Under the pieces are notes generated by a model, which did no database searches, was not told where the DNA came from, and saw only the letters and a list, made by a program, of their open reading frames with translations. From positions 124,001-188,000 of the forward strand of contig NZ_JNIY01000003.1 in the NCBI RefSeq assembly GCF_000701465.1: a DNA stretch of 64,000 bases. The letters are read 5' to 3'. Positions 29,352-40,859 of the stretch are shown here, piece after piece. Numbering within the stretch: position 1 is the first letter of the stretch; each line of letters starts with the position of its first letter. The translations under genes and the position numbers were made by a program. Origin of the DNA: Paraoerskovia marina DSM 21750. GTDB lineage: Bacteria > Actinomycetota > Actinomycetes > Actinomycetales > Cellulomonadaceae.

Positions 29352-29666
29352 ATGAACGACAACAAGACTTTTGGCGGCGTCCGGGTCGACCCGACCCGCG
29401 CCCACTGGGAGATGTGGGGCGAGGTGGACGCCGCCGTGCAGAGCGAGGTCGCCCACGTGCTGACCGACCACCTCCTCGAGACCGCCGACGAGCCACTGAC
29501 CGTGGACCTGAGCGGCGTGACCTTCATCGACTCCGGCGGCCTGCGGCTGCTGTACACCGCTGCGGAGCACAAGCCGACGCCGCCGGTGCTCGTCGGAGCA
29601 CCCGCGCGAGTCGTCGACCTGCTGCGACTGAGCGGAGTCGATACGCTGTTCATCCTGAACGACTGA
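29352..29666 (+). CDS. STAS-domain anti-sigma factor antagonist
   Basis: A 104-residue STAS protein of the RsbV/SpoIIAA kind. The phosphorylation site is Ser61 in VTFIDSGGLRLL. In its unphosphorylated form such a protein captures an RsbW-like kinase and frees a sigma factor. ATG 29352 has AAAAGG at proper spacing; an in-frame GTG at 29346 is too close to it. The kinase-like partner follows 12 bases later, and a PP2C phosphatase that could dephosphorylate Ser61 is encoded at 31311-33563. Confidence 0.9.
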   Translation: MNDNKTFGGVRVDPTRAHWEMWGEVDAAVQSEVAHVLTDHLLETADEPLTVDLSGVTFIDSGGLRLLYTAAEHKPTPPVLVGAPARVVDLLRLSGVDTLFILND

Positions 29667-29678
29667 GGAGGGGTAGGC

Positions 29679-30125
29679 GTGGATCAGACGATGACACTCG
29701 GCCCGACTCCTGCGGGCTTCCGCGAGTTGCGCTCGTGGCCGCTCCTGAGCGTCGACGACCTTGCCGTCGTCCGCCAGGATCTGGCGTCGACGCTGCCGCA
29801 GAGTCCCGGAGCCAGTCTGGAAGAGGTACCGGAGTCCGTGGTGCTCGTGGTCAGCGAGCTCGCGACCAACGCGCTGCGGCACGGCGGGGGCCCGGTCTCC
29901 GTCCATCTGTCCGAGCGGAGCGGTGAGGTGCTCGTCGACGTCGTCGACCGTGCGCCCGACGTCGCGCCGCAGTTCGTCGACGGGCGACCCGTCGGTGGTG
30001 GCGGGTTCGGTCTCCGGCTCGCCGCGCGGCTCGCCGACCAGCTCGGCTGGTACGCGACGGACACCGGCAAGCACGTCTGGGCACAGTTCAGCGTGTCCTC
30101 CAAGATGCCGAGTCTTTCCGCCTAG
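29679..30125 (+). CDS. RsbW-like ATP-binding anti-sigma/serine kinase protein
   Basis: A 148-residue HATPase_c_2 protein. The N-box ELATNALRHGGG, the segment VDVVDRAPDV and the glycine loop GGGGFGLRLAARLAD are all visible, so it should bind ATP. Proteins of this type phosphorylate the STAS partner and may hold a sigma factor. GTG 29679 follows GAGGAGGGG. It forms a two-gene unit with the STAS gene. No sigma-factor gene is in the window, so the final target is unknown. Confidence 0.88.
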   Translation: MDQTMTLGPTPAGFRELRSWPLLSVDDLAVVRQDLASTLPQSPGASLEEVPESVVLVVSELATNALRHGGGPVSVHLSERSGEVLVDVVDRAPDVAPQFVDGRPVGGGGFGLRLAARLADQLGWYATDTGKHVWAQFSVSSKMPSLSA

Positions 30126-30152
30126 CTCCCTCACCCGTCGGAGCACGTGGGC

Positions 30153-31220
30153 CTACGACCCGTCGACGTCGACCTCGATGATCTGGTCGTCCTCCGGTCG
30201 TGGGGTCCCGCGTCCGTCCGTGTTGTTCGTCAGCGCCCAGAGCTCGCCGGTGGGCGTCACGACGGCGTCGCGGAGCCGACCCTCGTCGTCGACGACCACG
30301 CTCGAGGTCGCGGGGTCGTCCACCGGGACGGCACGGAGCACCTCGCCGCCGAGGTTCGCGACGTAGAGGGTCCCGTCGAGGTGCGCCATCCCGGACGGGC
30401 TGGCCTCCCCGGGCTCCCACTGCTGGACCGGGTCGACGAAGCCGTCGACGTCGGCGATGCCCTCGACGTCGGGCCAGCCGTAGTTCGCACCCGCCGTGAC
30501 GACGTTGAGCTCGTCCCACGTGTTCTGGCCGAACTCCGTGGCGAACATCGTGCCGTCGTCGGACCAGGCCAGCCCCTGGACGTTGCGGTGCCCCAGGCTG
30601 TACACCAACGAGCCGGGGACGGGGTTGTCCTCCGGGGCGTCGCCGTCGGGTGTCATGCGCAGGATCTTGCCCGCCAGGGACGCCGGGTCCTGGGCGCGCT
30701 CCGGCTCGCCGGCGTCGCCCGTGGTGGCGTAGAGCATCCCGTCGGGACCGACCGCGAGGCGCCCGCCGTTGTGGTTCGACGCCGCGGGGATCTCGGCGAC
30801 GACCGTGGTCCGTTCACCCAGGGCCAGTGCGCCGGGATCCCCGGTCAGGGGGTAGCGCTGGATGCGGTTGCCGTCCGCGGCCGTCGAGTAGACGTAGAGG
30901 TTCCGCTCCGCGTCCACCGCCAGCCCGAGCAGGCCTCCCTCGCCGCCGTGCACGACGCCGTCGACCGTCGCGACGGTCCGGGCTCCGCCCTCCGTCACCT
31001 CGAGGATGCGCCCGCTGTCCCGCTCGCTGACGAGGGCGACGTCGTCGACGAACGCGACGGACCACGGAGCCTGCAGGCCGGTCGCCGCACCCGTGGCCGT
31101 CCCGTCCGGCGTGGCGGTCTCGTCCGACGTCGTCGTGGTGCACGCCGTGAGCGGGCCGAGTACGAGGAACGCCGCGAGGCCGATCCGCGCCGACGTCCGT
31201 CGTCGGGTCTTCGTCCGCAT
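30153..31220 (-). CDS. PQQ-dependent glucose/sorbosone dehydrogenase-like lipoprotein
   Basis: A 355-residue lipoprotein (lipobox LTAC, Cys27) with the six-bladed propeller of the GSDH family: LQAPWSVAF, HGGEGGLLGLA, SNHNGGRLAVG, GHRNVQGLAW and NYGWPDVEG. These enzymes oxidise sugars outside the cell using PQQ, though many actinobacterial members lack proven activity. The start at 31220 follows AGGAGG. It lies between the two halves of the partner-switch module with no obvious functional tie. Confidence 0.88.
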   Translation of the reverse strand: MRTKTRRRTSARIGLAAFLVLGPLTACTTTTSDETATPDGTATGAATGLQAPWSVAFVDDVALVSERDSGRILEVTEGGARTVATVDGVVHGGEGGLLGLAVDAERNLYVYSTAADGNRIQRYPLTGDPGALALGERTTVVAEIPAASNHNGGRLAVGPDGMLYATTGDAGEPERAQDPASLAGKILRMTPDGDAPEDNPVPGSLVYSLGHRNVQGLAWSDDGTMFATEFGQNTWDELNVVTAGANYGWPDVEGIADVDGFVDPVQQWEPGEASPSGMAHLDGTLYVANLGGEVLRAVPVDDPATSSVVVDDEGRLRDAVVTPTGELWALTNNTDGRGTPRPEDDQIIEVDVDGS

Positions 31221-31310
31221 GCGTCCTCCTGATCGCGGGGCCGTCCGCCCACGATAGGTGGCTCGCGCCGGTGCCGCAGTCGGCGGGCGAGCGGCGGGGC
31301 GGCCGGGCGG

Positions 31311-33563
31311 TCAGTGCCGCCGCAGCACCAGCACCGTGGCGTCGTCGTCGGACTCGGGGTCGCGCACGGTCGCCACGAGACGTTGGGGGTCGACGGAGTG
31401 CTCGGCCGCGCTGCGGAGACGCTCGAGCGCCTCGACGATCGACTCGTCGCGATGCTCGACGAGTCCGTCGCTGAAGAGGACGAGGGAGCCACCGGTCGGC
31501 ACCTGCGCGGTGCCGACCGCCTCGACCCGGAGGCCGACACCGAGCGGCGGAGCGCCGAGGATCTCGCCGACGAACGCGCCGTCGGTGCCGACCATCACGG
31601 GCGGCGGGTGCCCGGCCGTGACGTACTCGACCTCGCCCGTGGACGGGTCGAGGACGGCGACCACGAGGGTCGCGACCTGGCCGGGCAGGGTGGTGCGCAG
31701 CAGGTGGTCGACCTGCGAGACGGCCTGGACGGCGGAGCTGCCGGTGACGAGCAGCGCGCGCAAGGCGTTGCGGAGCTGGCCCATCGTGGCCGCCGCGGGC
31801 AGGCCGTGACCCGTCACGTCTCCGACGACGGCGGCCAGGCGGCCGTCGCCGAGCGGCAGGGCGTCGTACCAGTCGCCGCCGGCATGCCCGCCGCCGGACG
31901 GTTCGTAGACCGCCTCCAGTGACCACCCCTCGACGTCGGGCAGCGACGTGGGGAGCAGGCTCTGCTGCAGTGTCGACGCGGCCCGGATGTCGCGCCGACC
32001 GCGCATCAGCAGGCCCTCGGCCACGTAGGAGCGCAGCGACGTCGCGACGTCGACCTGGTCGTCGGTCCACGGCTCGCTCTTGTCCCGGACCACCTCGCGC
32101 CAGCGGGCGAACGACTTGCGGGGCGAGAGGCGGACGGAGTCGCCCTCGCTGCGCGCGATGGCCTTGTTCCGCGGGTCGCCGCCCCAGTCCACGCTCTGCA
32201 CGACCTCCTCGCGCAGCCAGACCGCGACCGCGTCGCCCGGGACCAGGAGGGCCAGGAGTCCTGCGGACCCGGGGACGAGCTCGGCGAGCTCGGGGTGGTC
32301 CTGCTTCAGGTGGTGCGTGACCAGGACCTCGACGCCGAGATCGGCGATGCGTCGACCGAGGGCCGTGCACGTCGCGTCGTCGGGCGTGGTGCCCACGCTG
32401 GCCAGGCGACCTTCGGCGATGACGAAGGCCCCGTCGGCGGGGATCAGGTCGAGGAGGCCGGGGGCTCCGGTGAGGGCCGCGGTGAGGGGGAGGTCGTCGT
32501 CGCGTGTGGCCGAGACGAGGTCCGCGAGCACACCCGCGGACCGTCGGGCCGCCGACGCGCGGTCGTCCTCGGCCTGCCTGACGAGCCGGGCGGAGAGGGT
32601 CGATCCCAGGAACTCCGCGGCGGCACGTGCCGCGTACGGCGGTGCGTGCGTCCCGGAGTAGTGATGGCACGCGATCAGGCCCCAGAGCCGACCGTCCCGC
32701 AGGAGCGAGATCGACATCGAGGCGCCGACACCCATGTTCTGCAGGTACTCGACGTGGATGGGCGAGACGCTGCGAAGGTTGCCGTAGGTCAGATCGAGCG
32801 GCCGGCCCGTGACCGGGTCGTCCGTCGGGACGATCTCCGAGGGGACGTAGTCGATGTCCGAGATCAGCCGGATCCAGTTCTTCTCGTACAGCGCGCGTGC
32901 CTGCGGCGGGATGTCCGACGCCGGGTAGTGCAGTCCGAGGAACGGGTTGAGGTCGTCCCGTCTGGCCTCGGCCACGACCTCGCCGTTGTAGTCGGCGTCG
33001 AAGTGGTAGAGCATCACTCGGTCGAACCCGGTCAGCTCGCGCACCCGCCGCACCGCGACGTCGTAGAGCTCCGCCAGGGACGTCGCCCGGTCGAGCTCGG
33101 CGAGCGCGTCGCGCACCGGCTCGAACGTGGAGCGATAGGTCAGCTCGGGAGGGCTGGAGAACGGTTCGACCTCGACGACGAGGACCGGTGGTCGTCCGTC
33201 GGTCTCGGTGTCCGGTGCGTGGTGCAGGACCACCTCGAACCTCCGTGAGCTACCCCGGACGACGATGTCGACGTCGACGGGGTTGCGCAGCCGGGGGTTC
33301 TCGACGCGGGCGACGTGGTCGAGGATCGTGGTGGCAGCGTCCGTGCCGATCGCACTGGCGAGCGTGCCGCCGACGACGTCGCGGACGTCGACACCGAGTA
33401 CCTCGGCGGTGCTCTCGGAGGCCTGCGTGACGACGCCGTCGTCCGTGCGCAGGGCCAGGAGGGCACCACGCGGCTGGACGCGGCCCGGGATGTGGATCGG
33501 CTCGCGGGCGCAGTTGTCGAGGTCGACGATCTCGTCGGGGGCAAGGAATCCCTGCTCGGTCAC
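31311..33563 (-). CDS. Bacteriophytochrome fused to a PP2C/SpoIIE-type serine phosphatase
   Basis: A 750-residue light sensor. Order of parts: PAS (about 20-125) with the biliverdin-attaching Cys18 in DLDNCAREPIHIPGRVQP; GAF (about 150-325) with PASDIPPQARALY and WGLIACHHY; PHY (about 335-510) with the tongue motif PRKSFARW; then a PP2C domain (about 545-748) with GGDWYD, GDVTGHGL, TAGHPPP and FSDGLVEHRD. All chromophore and metal-binding signatures look intact. It should convert red/far-red light into dephosphorylation of a STAS protein, very likely the one at 29352. GTG 33563 follows GGAGGG. No heme oxygenase gene is nearby to supply biliverdin. Confidence 0.93.
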   Translation of the reverse strand: MTEQGFLAPDEIVDLDNCAREPIHIPGRVQPRGALLALRTDDGVVTQASESTAEVLGVDVRDVVGGTLASAIGTDAATTILDHVARVENPRLRNPVDVDIVVRGSSRRFEVVLHHAPDTETDGRPPVLVVEVEPFSSPPELTYRSTFEPVRDALAELDRATSLAELYDVAVRRVRELTGFDRVMLYHFDADYNGEVVAEARRDDLNPFLGLHYPASDIPPQARALYEKNWIRLISDIDYVPSEIVPTDDPVTGRPLDLTYGNLRSVSPIHVEYLQNMGVGASMSISLLRDGRLWGLIACHHYSGTHAPPYAARAAAEFLGSTLSARLVRQAEDDRASAARRSAGVLADLVSATRDDDLPLTAALTGAPGLLDLIPADGAFVIAEGRLASVGTTPDDATCTALGRRIADLGVEVLVTHHLKQDHPELAELVPGSAGLLALLVPGDAVAVWLREEVVQSVDWGGDPRNKAIARSEGDSVRLSPRKSFARWREVVRDKSEPWTDDQVDVATSLRSYVAEGLLMRGRRDIRAASTLQQSLLPTSLPDVEGWSLEAVYEPSGGGHAGGDWYDALPLGDGRLAAVVGDVTGHGLPAAATMGQLRNALRALLVTGSSAVQAVSQVDHLLRTTLPGQVATLVVAVLDPSTGEVEYVTAGHPPPVMVGTDGAFVGEILGAPPLGVGLRVEAVGTAQVPTGGSLVLFSDGLVEHRDESIVEALERLRSAAEHSVDPQRLVATVRDPESDDDATVLVLRRH

Positions 33564-33674: not shown

Positions 33675-34805
33675 TCAGAGGTTGCGCGACCCGAGCCACG
33701 GCTCCAGGAGGTCGCGCTCGCCCAGCCAGGCAGCGCCGCCGTCGGCCATCTCGATGCCGGTGGTCAGAGCCTCGCCGAACGCGTCGAGAATCCGGTCCCG
33801 CGTGTGCCGTGACTCCGCCCGTTCACCGGCCCCGACGACGAGGATGCGGGTCACGGGGCTGTGGCTTCCCGCGACCTCGGCCCAGGACCCGAGGTCGGCG
33901 ACGCAGAGCGCCCCGCCGGCACCGTCCCACAGGCAGAGCGAGTCGGGTCGGTCGGGGACGTGGAACACCCCGCGGCTGCGGACGGGGCCCGTGCCCAGGT
34001 GCTCGATGTGCTCGAGCAGCCGCCCGGGGTGGAACGGTCGCTCGGAGCTGAGCAGCAGGCTCCAGCTTCGATCATTCGGGTCAGTTCCGCTGCGGTGCGG
34101 GTTGCGGGCGCCGAGCGGGTGCGCCCGCCGTTCGGCCGCGACCGTGTCGTGCCGGCACGCCGAGAGGTCCTCGACCCCGAGCTCGTGCAGTCCGTGCAGC
34201 CGTCGGCTGTCGCGTGCCCGGAGCCTGTCCACCAGGCCGGCACCCGTAGCGTCCTCGCCGACCGTCACCACCACGTCGACCTGCTCGAGCTGGGCGGCGA
34301 GGGCCTCGCCGAGCGGGCGCTCGTCGTCCGGGGTGAGGGCGACGCCCCGCTCGTCGACCAGGTCGTCGCCCAGCAGGTCCGCCTCGAGCGTGTCGAGGTC
34401 GACGAGGGCCACCGTGGCCGTGAGGCGCAGTCCCTCGAGCGCCTCTCCGGCGCGGACGTGCGTGGCCAGGGCCCGGGAGGCGGGGAGGGGCTCGGCGCTG
34501 ACGGGGAGTGCGAGGACGAGGGCACTCCACCGGCCGGTCGCGGCGAGTCGAGCGAGCGCAGGGACGGCGTCCTCGCGCACGCTGCACGAGACACACGCGT
34601 GCTCGAGCTCGGCGGTGGCGTCCTCGACGACCCCGGAGGCGTCGAGGACGACGCGGCGCATGGTGTGCCCGTCCGCCGCCAGGTCGTGGCGGAGGACCGC
34701 GACGTCGGGCGAGCCGAGCGTCAGCGCGACGGTCGCGGTGTCGCGGAGCACGGGATCGACGGTCACGAGCACGCTGAGCTCGACGGCAGACGGGTGGGGG
34801 TGCAC
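33675..34805 (-). CDS. mrf: MRF-type COG0523/CobW-like zinc-stress protein
   Basis: A 376-residue COG0523 relative with the metal-site motif CVSCSVRED, the SAEPLP segment and a C-terminal CobW domain (about 245-350). The normal P-loop GxxGxGKT is replaced by [15 protein letters not shown], so GTP binding by the usual route is doubtful. This matches what I recall of MRF, the mycobacterial protein that recruits the hibernation factor Mpy to zinc-free ribosomes. It is divergent from a zinc-free ribosomal protein operon with Zur-like boxes between. GTG 34805 follows AGGAGG. Confidence 0.82.
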
Positions 34806-34819
34806 AGGGCCTCCTGGTT

Positions 34820-34832
34820 GATAATGATTCTC
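34820..34832. promoter_or_regulatory. Zur-like box 1
   Basis: GATAATGATTCTC is a near-palindrome resembling actinobacterial Zur sites. It lies close to the mrf start and should repress mrf when zinc is plentiful. Confidence 0.7.
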
Positions 34833-34857
34833 GTTTCTGTAACACTCTACCCCGAAA

Positions 34858-34872
34858 TGAGAACGCTTCTCA
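34858..34872. promoter_or_regulatory. Zur-like box 2
   Basis: TGAGAA-CGC-TTCTCA is a perfect 15-bp palindrome of the same class, 33 bases before the rpmB start codon. With box 1 it gives each divergent unit its own site. Confidence 0.75.
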
Positions 34873-34904
34873 ATCATCGCCCGTCGCGGGCGGAAAGGAA
34901 GGTC

Positions 34905-35141
34905 ATGTCCGCCCGTTGCCAGGTACTCGGCACCGCCCCCGGGTTCGGCCACTCGATCTCGCACTCCCACGTGCGGACCAAGCGGCGCTTCAACCCGAAC
35001 ATCCAGAAGAAGAGGTACTGGGTGCCCACGCTCGGCCGCACGGTGACGCTGCGGGTCAGCACCCGCGGGATCAAGACGATCGACCGGGACGGGATCGACG
35101 TCGTCGTCGCCCGGATCCGTGCCCGAGGGGAGAAGGTCTGA
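34905..35141 (+). CDS. rpmB: Ribosomal protein L28, zinc-independent paralogue
   Basis: A 78-residue L28 ([20 protein letters not shown], then [15 protein letters not shown]). The CxxC pairs of the zinc form are absent; only one Cys remains near the start. In zinc starvation such paralogues replace the zinc-bearing protein and free its metal. AAGGAAGG precedes ATG 34905. It is the first gene of a six-gene unit under a Zur-like box. Confidence 0.93.
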
Positions 35142-35308
35142 TGGCCTCCCGGACCGAGCTCCGCCCGATCATCCGGCTCGTCTCCACCGCCGGGACGGGC
35201 TTCACCTACGTCACGCGCAAGAACCGGCGCACCACCCCCGACCGCATGGTGCTGCGCAAGTACGACCCCGTCGTACGCCGGCACGTCGACTTCAAGGAGT
35301 CCCGCTGA
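35141..35308 (+). CDS. rpmG: Ribosomal protein L33, zinc-independent paralogue
   Basis: A 55-residue L33 ([20 protein letters not shown], then [20 protein letters not shown]). None of the four zinc cysteines of the zinc form is present. It shares one base with the end of rpmB and one with the start of rpsN, so the three are translated together. Confidence 0.93.
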
Positions 35309-35613
35309 TGGCCAAGACCTCCAAGATCACCGCCGACGAGCGCCGCCGCCAGCTCGTCGCTCGCTACGCCGAGCGTCGCGCAGAGCTCAAGCGCGTCGTC
35401 TCCGCCCCGACGAGCACGCCGGAGGAGCGGCACGCCGCCGTCGTCGAGCTGCAGCGCCAGCCCCGCGACGCGAGCCGGACGCGCGTCCGCAACCGCGACG
35501 TCGTCGACGGTCGCCCGCGCGGGTACGTCGGCGCGTTCGGCCTCTCGCGCATCCGTCTGCTGGAGATGGCCCACCGCGGCGAGCTGCCCGGCGTGACCAA
35601 GTCCAGTTGGTAG
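35308..35613 (+). CDS. rpsN: Ribosomal protein S14, zinc-independent long form
   Basis: A 101-residue S14 with the conserved C-terminal half ([20 protein letters not shown], then [21 protein letters not shown] in part). It is the long form without the CxxC zinc site found in the short zinc type. It follows rpmG with a one-base overlap. Confidence 0.94.
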
Positions 35614-35629
35614 ACCTGAGGAGAACCGT

Positions 35630-35926
35630 ATGAAGAAGAGCATCCACCCCGAGTACGGACCCGTCGTCTTCCGCGACGCGAGCGCCGGCGTCGCGTTCCT
35701 GACGCGGTCGACGCTCGCCGGGCGAACGGCGTCCGGTCCGGACCGTCCGCTCGCCACGGTCGAGTGGGAGGACGGGCGCACCTACCCCGTCGTCGACGTC
35801 GACGTGTCCAGCGCCAGCCACCCCTTCTGGACCGGCGCGAACCGTGTCGTCGACACCGCCGGCCGGGTCGAGAAGTTCCACCGCCGGTACGGGACCGGCC
35901 CCGCGACGTCGGGCGCGGCCCGGTGA
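35630..35926 (+). CDS. rpmE2: Ribosomal protein L31 type B, zinc-independent
   Basis: A 98-residue type B L31 ([20 protein letters not shown], then [20 protein letters not shown] and FHRRYG). It lacks the zinc-binding cysteines of type A. TGAGGAGAA lies just upstream of ATG 35630. It overlaps rpmJ by four bases. Confidence 0.94.
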
Positions 35927-36045
35927 AGGTCCGCGCGTCCCTGCGCTCTCTGAAGAACAAGCCCGGCGCGAAGGTCGTGCGGCGCCGGGGCAAGACCTAC
36001 GTCATCAACAGGCAGAACCCGCGCTGGAAGGCGCGGCAGGGCTGA
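35923..36045 (+). CDS. rpmJ: Ribosomal protein L36, zinc-independent type
   Basis: A 40-residue L36 of the cysteine-free (YkgO-like) type: [20 protein letters not shown], then [18 protein letters not shown]. The usual L36 zinc ligands are missing. GTG 35923 overlaps the rpmE2 stop (GTGA). Confidence 0.93.
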
Positions 36046-38246: not shown

Positions 38247-38684
38247 TCAGTTCGCCTGCGCGGTGACGGGCGTCACGCCCAGCTGCTCGATCAGGGCGAG
38301 GACGCGGCCGCGGATCTCGTCGCGGATCGGGCGGACGGCCTCGATCCCCTGACCGGCCGGGTCCTCGAGCGCCCAGTCCTCGTAGCGCTTGCCGGGGAAG
38401 ACGGGGCAGACGTCGCCGCAGCCCATGGTGATGACGGCGTCGGACGCCTGGACGGCGTCGGTGGTCAGCACCTTCGGCTGCTCGTCACGAATGTCGATGC
38501 CGACCTCCAGCATCGCCTCGACGGCGGTCGGGTTGATCTGGTCGGCGGGCATGGAGCCTGCGGAGCGTACCTCGACGGCGCCGCCGGAGAGCGCGCGGAG
38601 GAAGCCCGCGGCCATCTGGGAGCGGCCGGCGTTGTGGACGCAGACGAAGAGTGCGGACGGTCGGTTCTGGGCGTTCGCGGTCAT
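38247..38684 (-). CDS. arsC: Arsenate reductase ArsC, low-molecular-weight phosphatase fold
   Basis: A 145-residue reductase converting arsenate to arsenite. It has the phosphatase-like loop FVCVHNAGRSQ with nucleophile Cys15, and the relay region MGCGDVCPVFPGKRYEDW with Cys89 and Cys93. The start at 38684 follows GGAG at correct spacing; the in-frame ATG at 38711 lacks one. It lies downstream of acr3 and the ArsR-ArsC fusion on the same strand. The fusion gene carries a second reductase domain. Confidence 0.92.
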   Translation of the reverse strand: MTANAQNRPSALFVCVHNAGRSQMAAGFLRALSGGAVEVRSAGSMPADQINPTAVEAMLEVGIDIRDEQPKVLTTDAVQASDAVITMGCGDVCPVFPGKRYEDWALEDPAGQGIEAVRPIRDEIRGRVLALIEQLGVTPVTAQAN

Positions 38685-38730
38685 GTGTGTTCTCCGTGGG
38701 GTCGGTTCCAACAGGGTCGGGAGTGCGTGG

Positions 38731-39732
38731 TCAGGCGGTGAAGTCGGGCAGGAGGTCGGCCAGCAGCGCGCGGACGTGACCGTCGATCTCGTCGCGGATG
38801 GCCTCGACGCCCGCGGGTGACGCCAGTGCGGGGTCGCCGACGGCCCAGTCCTCGTACCGCTTGCCCGGCAGGACGGGGCAGACGTCGCCGCAGCCCATGG
38901 TGACGACGACGTCGGACGCGCGGACGGCGTCGTCGGTCAGCGGCTTCGGGAAGGGTGCGTCGGCGTCGAGCGCCTCCAGCGGGGGTCGGACGCCCGTGTG
39001 GACGTCGCTCGCGGGGGTGGAGCCCGCGGACCGCACGACGACCCGGTCGCCGACGTAGTGCCGGACGAGCGCCGCGGCGAGCTGCGAGCGTCCCGCGTTG
39101 GCGACGCACAGGAACAGGACCTGCGGGCGGGTGTCCGTCGCGGCCTCGGTGCGCTCCACGTCGGCGACGCGCTGCCGGGCGAACCGCTCGGTCAGCGTCA
39201 GCAGGTGCACCGAGATGCGGGCGGTGCGCGCGAGCGCCGTGTAGGACTCGCGGACGATCCGGCGCGCGGTGTCGGCGTCGACGTGCTCGTACGTCTCTGC
39301 GAGCTGGTCGGCCAGCGCGGTGAGCGCGGTGTCGGTGTCCGTGAGCCCCGTCATGGTGCGTGCCGGGGCCTGGCCGGCGAGCGCGGCCGGTGCGAACGAG
39401 TCGAGGAGCGTGCTGACGGCGCCGCGGTACTCGCTGTTGATCCGGTACCAGACCCAGGTCCCGCGTCGCTCCGAGGTCAGCACACCGACGTCGCGCATCA
39501 CCTTGAGGTGGTGGGACACCGTGGGCTGGGAGACGTCGGTCAGGGCGCTGAGGTCGCAGACGCACGCCTCGCCCGACGGGGTGGTCGCGATGAACGACAG
39601 GATCCGCAGTCGGAGGGGGTCGGCGAGCGCCTTGAGCGTGGTGGCGACCACGGCGGCGACGTCGGTGCCGATGGCGTGGGAGTCGGTCTGCGGCGTGCAG
39701 GCCTCGGCGGGCTCGGTGGTTTCGGTGGTCAT
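38731..39732 (-). CDS. ArsR repressor fused to an ArsC arsenate reductase
   Basis: A 333-residue three-part protein. Residues 20-110 form an ArsR winged helix (LKALADPLRLRILSFI, SQPTVSHHLKVMRDVG) with sensor cysteines Cys12, Cys57 and Cys59. Residues about 130-190 form a helical bundle (TDTALTALADQLAETYEHV, then RRIVRESYTALARTARI) found in front of many actinobacterial phosphatase-fold reductases. Residues 203-333 are ArsC with Cys209, Cys281 and Cys285. Sensing and reduction are thus in one chain. AAGGA precedes the start at 39732, which overlaps the acr3 stop. Confidence 0.92.
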   Translation of the reverse strand: MTTETTEPAEACTPQTDSHAIGTDVAAVVATTLKALADPLRLRILSFIATTPSGEACVCDLSALTDVSQPTVSHHLKVMRDVGVLTSERRGTWVWYRINSEYRGAVSTLLDSFAPAALAGQAPARTMTGLTDTDTALTALADQLAETYEHVDADTARRIVRESYTALARTARISVHLLTLTERFARQRVADVERTEAATDTRPQVLFLCVANAGRSQLAAALVRHYVGDRVVVRSAGSTPASDVHTGVRPPLEALDADAPFPKPLTDDAVRASDVVVTMGCGDVCPVLPGKRYEDWAVGDPALASPAGVEAIRDEIDGHVRALLADLLPDFTA

Positions 39733-40859
39733 GACCGGTCCTTCGTCGGGATGGAGGCTGCTGGTGACGTGCTGCTGTCCGGTTCGACGACGGGCTGTGC
39801 GTACGGGTCGACGCCGAACCAGCGCGGTGCGAGCCAGAGGCTCACGTAGACGAGGCCGACGAGCACCGGGACCTCGATCAGCGGTCCGACGACGCCGGCG
39901 AGCGCCTCGCCGGACGTGGCGCCGAAGGTCCCGATCGCCACGGCGATCGCGAGCTCGAAGTTGTTGCCGGCGGCGGTGAACGCGAGCGTCGTGGTCCGGG
40001 CGTACCCGAGGCCGAGGATCTTCCCGGTGACCATGCCGATGCCCCACATGATCGCGAAGTAGCACAGCAGGGGCAGCGCGATCCGGGCGACGTCCGTCGG
40101 GTTCGAGGTCACGGCCTCGCCCTGGAGGGCGAAGAGCAGGACGATCGTGAACAGCAGCCCGTACAGGGCCCACGGGCCGATCTTCGGCAGGAACGTCTCC
40201 TCGTACCACTCGCGACCCTTGGCGCGCTCGCCGATCCGGCGCGAGAGGAATCCCGCGATCAGCGGTATCCCGAGGAACACGAGGACGTTGAGCGCGATCT
40301 CACCCATGGAGATGTCGAGCCCGGCCGTGTCGAGGCCCAGCCAGCCGGGCAGCACGGTGAGGTAGAAGTATCCCAGGACCGAGAAGGCGAAGACCTGGAA
40401 GACCGAGTTGATGGCGACGAGGATGGCGGCGGCCTCGCGGTCGCCGCAGGCGAGGTCGTTCCAGATCACGACCATCGCGATGCACCGTGCCAGGCCCACG
40501 ATGATCAGGCCGGTGCGGTACTCCGGCAGGTCGGGCAGGAACAGCCAGGCGAGCGTGAACATCAGCGCGGGGCCGACCACCCAGTTGAGGACGAGCGAGC
40601 TGGTCAAGAGCTTCTTGTCCCCGGTGACCGAGGCGACCTTGTCGTACCGCACCTTCGCGAGGACGGGGTACATCATGATCAGCAGGCCGAGCGCGATGGG
40701 GATCGAGATCCCGCCGACCTCCATGGCCGCGAGCGCGTCCGAGAGGCCCGGGATGAAGCGGCCGATCAGGATGCCGCCGACCATCGCGAGGCCGATCCAG
40801 AGCGGGAGCCAGCGGTCGAGGGTCGAGAGATGGGGGCGCTGCGCCTGCTGTATTGACAT
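39729..40859 (-). CDS. acr3: Arsenite efflux transporter Acr3
   Basis: A 376-residue, ten-helix transporter. The conserved Cys in VGLARCIAMVVIWNDLACGD and the FTAAGNNFELAIAVA segment identify Acr3 rather than ArsB. It expels As(III) made by the two ArsC activities encoded downstream. It is first in the operon. The start at 40859 lies about 7 bases after a CAATAT box, so the mRNA may begin at the start codon. Direct TATTGAC repeats cover this promoter. Confidence 0.94.
   Translation of the reverse strand: MSIQQAQRPHLSTLDRWLPLWIGLAMVGGILIGRFIPGLSDALAAMEVGGISIPIALGLLIMMYPVLAKVRYDKVASVTGDKKLLTSSLVLNWVVGPALMFTLAWLFLPDLPEYRTGLIIVGLARCIAMVVIWNDLACGDREAAAILVAINSVFQVFAFSVLGYFYLTVLPGWLGLDTAGLDISMGEIALNVLVFLGIPLIAGFLSRRIGERAKGREWYEETFLPKIGPWALYGLLFTIVLLFALQGEAVTSNPTDVARIALPLLCYFAIMWGIGMVTGKILGLGYARTTTLAFTAAGNNFELAIAVAIGTFGATSGEALAGVVGPLIEVPVLVGLVYVSLWLAPRWFGVDPYAQPVVEPDSSTSPAASIPTKDRS

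Follow-up and report, generated by a model that had tools for sequence, protein, structure and literature searches.

Non-photosynthetic actinobacteria often carry phytochromes of unknown purpose. In the window, the whole stretch of 64,000 nucleotides analysed here, a gene for a bacteriophytochrome fused to a PP2C phosphatase lies close to genes for a STAS antagonist and an RsbW-like kinase (Table 1), which raises the question of whether the three form a light-operated switch and, if so, what that switch controls. We addressed both points in the host genome (2.95 Mb in 11 contigs, 99.98% complete) and in 222 genomes of the family. The locus probably encodes a partner switch with red/far-red light input, whose kinase, phosphatase and light steps we infer from sequence and whose target would be something other than a SigB/F/G factor.

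Table 1. Features of the locus, in window coordinates
Feature	Position	Strand	Details
STAS antagonist, RsbV/SpoIIAA-like	29352..29666	+	104 aa; predicted phospho-acceptor Ser61; STAS_2 PF13466, E = 1e-11
RsbW/SpoIIAB-like switch kinase	29691..30125	+	144 aa; HATPase_c_2 PF13581, E = 7e-11
GSDH, glucose/sorbosone dehydrogenase-like	30153..31220	-	PF07995; bystander between the switch parts
Bacteriophytochrome-PP2C fusion	31311..33563	-	750 aa, GTG start; PAS-GAF-PHY-helix-SpoIIE

A phytochrome with a phosphatase output

Pfam placed four domains in the phytochrome-PP2C protein above curated cut-offs: PAS_2 (PF08446), GAF (PF01590), PHY (PF00360) and SpoIIE/PP2C (PF07228, E = 2e-39). The biliverdin-binding Cys18, PASDIP at residues 214-219 (with Asp217), ACHHY at 298-302 (with His300) and the PRKSF tongue at 481-485, all described in an earlier note on this DNA, were present as it had said, together with SPIH (His270) and intact PP2C metal-site aspartates. 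The photosensory core matched solved bacteriophytochrome structures with E values down to 4e-109 and Cys18 is present in 78 of 81 family homologues, which rules out chance as the source of this domain and motif pattern. The protein thus has, by its sequence, a biliverdin-binding-competent photosensory core and an intact SpoIIE-type PP2C.

The NCBIfam BphP model aligned to residues 11-527 at 351 bits, well below its equivalog cut-off of 1040 bits, because the histidine kinase is absent. In domain content, the protein is a phytochrome whose usual histidine kinase output is replaced by SpoIIE/PP2C, as the earlier note had recognized. In the predicted structure (mean pLDDT 76.8, pTM 0.50, with low confidence for the chromophore pocket and tongue), a continuous helix spanning residues 501-536 joins PHY to PP2C. 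Activation through a helical linker has been documented for related GSR phosphatases (PMC12143880); the modelled helix fits this published coiled-coil linker mechanism, and we infer that the window protein may use it.

Two partners on the opposite strand

The profile of the small STAS protein matched structures of TM1442, SpoIIAA and RsbV. It is a stand-alone STAS domain with a predicted phospho-acceptor serine, as expected of an RsbV/SpoIIAA-type antagonist, and scored 39.8 bits against the NCBIfam ant_ant_sig model, below the cut-off of 53.45. For the RsbW-like HATPase, a profile search by sequence against PDB chains gave no match at E 0.01, and the predicted fold was therefore used for classification. 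Foldseek ranked structures of SpoIIAB, RsbW and mycobacterial anti-SigF as its top matches (mean pLDDT 79.5); by this predicted fold, and by its N, G1 and G2 boxes in a stand-alone domain, the HATPase is of the RsbW/SpoIIAB type.

The two genes are probably co-transcribed, since they share a strand and 25 bp separate the STAS stop from the start of the RsbW-like gene. The pair stands tail to tail with the GSDH and phytochrome genes, and the 3' ends of the RsbW-like and phytochrome genes are 1.19 kb apart. The spacing of about 1.2 kb given by the earlier note was therefore accurate, and Pfam matches bear out both partners; they lie on the strand opposite the phytochrome-PP2C gene, so the trio is not one operon in this genome. 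Proximity in this genome alone is weak evidence for a single unit.

Linkage of the trio across the family

A phytochrome match was found in 119 of the 222 family genomes. We compared 80 phytochrome-PP2C loci (79 relatives plus the window) and scored a locus as linked when STAS and RsbW genes both lay within 3 kb, which was the case at 42 of the 80. On the phytochrome-PP2C tree, presence or absence of the pair changes state only three times: the pair is kept in all 37 members of the clade that contains the window (seven genera, SH-aLRT 96), where phytochrome identity falls to about 41%, and in all four members of a separate, Sanguibacter-type clade.

Three gene orders occur within the 37-member clade and a fourth in the four-member clade. 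Counted over all linked loci, the order phytochrome>RsbW<STAS< was seen at 34 loci (one with an extra RsbW gene upstream), phytochrome>STAS<RsbW> at five, STAS>RsbW>phytochrome> at two, and the order interrupted by GSDH only in the window. The pair directly adjoins the phytochrome gene, with no GSDH gene, in four Isoptericola, Cellulomonas sp. PhB143 and Sediminihabitans, and adjoins it in a different orientation in Sanguibacter. The phospho-acceptor serine of STAS, the N-box Glu/Asn, G1 Asp and G2 glycines of the HATPase and the metal-site aspartates of PP2C were each invariant in all 42 linked sets. Distances covaried between phytochrome and RsbW (r = 0.92) and between phytochrome and STAS (r = 0.81), a co-divergence that vertical inheritance explains in part.

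Clustering of all neighbouring genes served as a built-in control for the linkage. Only the phytochrome, RsbW and STAS families recur together in more than five genera; a generic ABC ATPase family ranked next in breadth, and this clustering revealed no fourth conserved partner or output gene at phytochrome-PP2C loci. The earlier note was right that a GSDH gene lies between the parts, a position that is found only in the window and marks the gene as a bystander. We rejected GSDH as a switch component: its gene lies beyond STAS in the Isoptericola relatives and is missing near most other loci. A search of plasmid records gave no match.

Alternatively, the phytochrome gene and the pair might be neighbours by inheritance only, with the phosphatase acting on some other STAS protein, encoded away from the locus, and the pair answering to other phosphatases. 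The separate transcription units are compatible with such an arrangement, and the host genome encodes eight other PP2C and five other STAS_2 proteins over cut-off, so crosstalk is possible. In addition, most Cellulomonas phytochrome-PP2C genes have no STAS/RsbW genes nearby, and pairs without an adjacent phytochrome-PP2C gene occur at three loci (L234, L235 and L249, in genomes G142, G147 and G208, respectively); neither therefore strictly needs the other as a neighbour. We nevertheless regard inheritance alone as an unlikely explanation, given that the linkage persists throughout the 37-member clade at such low phytochrome identity and in several gene orders, that no other neighbour is conserved, and that the linkage may have been re-made with divergent partners in one Cellulomonas. 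Comparative genomics thus supports reading the phytochrome-PP2C, STAS and RsbW-like proteins as one functional unit.

The Cellulomonas locus in question (L203) carries a divergent STAS and RsbW pair beside its phytochrome-PP2C gene, which hints at independent recruitment, a reading made uncertain by long branches. Gene trees of STAS and RsbW rest on sequences too short for firm branching and have paralogues mixed in, and we do not claim orthology across all gene orders. Near mycobacterial and Geodermatophilus phytochrome-PP2C genes, no STAS/RsbW-type partners were detected within 10 kb by profiles of close relatives, which could miss remote ones. In G142, the CobW and ribosomal-protein genes that accompany the locus in the window still lie close to the phytochrome-less pair. 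Elsewhere in the host genome, outside the window (L231, C3:380000-395000), there is a second partner-switch cluster: within about 8 kb lie genes for a PP2C, a STAS protein and a PAS-PP2C-HATPase fusion, along with a longer frame that contains STAS.

Candidate targets of the switch kinase

The earlier note had called the three-part switch complete and expected a cognate sigma factor. The sensor, antagonist and kinase are indeed there, whereas a search for a sigma factor of the usual partner-switch type found none, so that "complete" overstates the case. With the SigB/F/G model TIGR02980, matches in the host genome were limited to SigA (130 bits, against a cut-off of 234) and weakly scoring ECF factors, and the sigma-70 region 2 model recovered SigA and seven ECF-like proteins. 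None of the 222 family genomes encodes a SigB/F/G factor over the model cut-off; the nearest were three genomes of genus g15 (213-221 bits), none of which has a phytochrome match. No sigma gene lies at the locus itself. We therefore rejected a SigB/F/G target, the type usual for partner switches: the RsbW-like protein cannot be an anti-SigB/F factor here. Judging from the gene content, this would leave SigA, any of the roughly seven ECF factors and proteins other than sigma factors as candidates. A SigA target has a precedent in Chlamydia, whose RsbW binds sigma-66, the primary sigma factor (PMC4552016), and a non-sigma target has one in certain STAS outputs that have no link to any known sigma factor (PMC8256260).

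The absence of a SigB-type sigma factor over cut-off from both genome and family would also suit a pair of the RsbS-RsbT kind, in which the HATPase kinase binds no sigma factor and additionally binds and activates the PP2C, so that light and kinase jointly set the phosphatase. Activation of a PP2C by RsbT through its linker has been documented (PMC12143880), and the HATPase is too divergent for a PDB profile match. However, the closest matches to its predicted fold are SpoIIAB, RsbW and anti-SigF (few RsbT structures may exist for comparison), and Pfam detected no RsbU-type N-terminal RsbT-binding domain in the phytochrome-PP2C protein. We consider an RsbS-RsbT-like pair quite improbable and favour an RsbW-like kinase that holds a target of its own.

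Chromophore supply and blind relatives

A search of the genome for heme oxygenase, suggested by the earlier note, found one gene, unlinked to the phytochrome-PP2C locus. Across the family, the enzyme tracks light-competent receptors: it was present in 107 of the 112 genomes that encode a sighted phytochrome versus 45 of the 103 that encode no phytochrome at all, and Fisher p-values on this association ignore relatedness and are descriptive only. Heme oxygenase genes adjoin the phytochrome-PP2C gene at five mycobacterial loci (L052, L053, L054, L064 and L068), three family loci and one Geodermatophilus locus (L056); STAS/RsbW genes were not detected near the mycobacterial and Geodermatophilus loci.

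Seven genomes in two genera encode blind phytochrome-PP2C proteins, which have lost the biliverdin cysteine, His270 and the PRxSF tongue and have kept the PP2C domain (L222, L223, L225, L250, L251, L252 and L253, in G020, G139, G152, G142, G147, G150 and G151, respectively). The STAS/RsbW genes are still adjacent at the six blind loci that are complete enough to see. The three blind proteins included in the tree were all nested inside the linked clade and therefore descended from sighted ancestors, and the blindness is probably a single evolutionary loss, one event rather than seven. As far as gene content can tell, these relatives show that the partner switch can outlive light sensing. The Rhodopseudomonas bacteriophytochrome RpBphP4, reportedly found by Vuillet in 2007 to have evolved from a light sensor into a redox sensor, is a precedent for such proteins; its output is a histidine kinase, whereas that of the blind relatives is a PP2C with a partner switch.

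That blind derivatives retain the switch raises the possibility that the window protein, too, is a light-independent phosphatase and that this species' phytochrome is blind. We consider this extremely improbable: the window protein retains every chromophore residue that was checked, and heme oxygenase is present here, unlike in six of the seven blind genomes. We lean towards a conserved, light-driven switch that controls a target other than SigB/F (SigA, an ECF factor or a non-sigma protein), whose sensor has been repeatedly kept and, in one lineage, blinded while the switch stayed.

Proposed mechanism and relation to known systems

In the light-driven switch that we favour, the RsbW-like kinase would phosphorylate STAS on Ser61 and the phytochrome-PP2C phosphatase would remove that phosphate. 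Photoconversion would re-pack the dimeric helix that links PHY to PP2C, turning the phosphatase on or off. Unphosphorylated STAS would then capture the RsbW-like protein, freeing its target.

The closest parallel is the general stress switch of Bacillus subtilis (RsbU/RsbP-RsbV-RsbW-SigB), which likewise combines a sensor-PP2C, a STAS antagonist and a HATPase kinase with the same catalytic residues, and whose sensor is joined to PP2C by a helical linker, as predicted in the window protein (PMC12143880). The window switch differs in its red/far-red phytochrome sensor and in that no SigB/F/G factor is found at the locus, in the genome or in the family. In Chlamydia, which lacks SigB, the RsbU-RsbV1-RsbW partner switch acts on the housekeeping sigma factor and so offers a precedent for the candidate target SigA; unlike the window switch, it has no light sensor (PMC4552016). 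Light input to a STAS/RsbW/SigB-type pathway, as proposed here, is known from the LOV-STAS proteins YtvA and Lmo0799 (PMC3019169). Those systems use a blue-light LOV domain and a stressosome with SigB present, whereas the window encodes a red-light receptor that doubles as the phosphatase, in a genome without SigB.

Phytochrome-SpoIIE/PPM is listed among bacteriophytochrome effector types (PMC9587094), in keeping with the earlier note's remark that phytochrome-PP2C fusions are known as domain architectures. The listed architecture is identical to that of the window protein, and linked STAS/RsbW partners are not described in the passages of that paper that were consulted. In a search that covered few subscription papers, we found no literature on the substrate of a phytochrome-SpoIIE protein, on its STAS/RsbW linkage or on a phytochrome-controlled partner switch; this absence is weak evidence. 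The architecture itself is already known, and the conserved linkage and the missing target are new to us.

From the conserved linkage one can name a sensor, the protein that is probably its direct substrate and the kinase that would work against it, so that the first steps of the pathway can be tested in vitro with three proteins. The blind relatives are ready-made controls for telling light sensing apart from the switch, and the absence of a SigB/F/G factor gives particular interest to what the switch controls. A further possible use of the trio is as an optogenetic phosphatase switch that responds to red light.

Other genes near the locus

A gap of 111 bp separates the phytochrome gene from a CobW/COG0523 gene upstream of it (CobW by Pfam; window 33675-36045). 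Divergent from the CobW gene are small ORFs that by eye resemble the ribosomal proteins L28, L33, S14, L31 and L36, and together with CobW these look like a zinc-starvation paralogue cluster. Further along (window 38247-40209), inspection of the ORF list by eye showed two arsenate-reductase-like low-molecular-weight phosphatase ORFs and an ArsR-like regulator, which probably constitute an ordinary arsenic resistance cluster.
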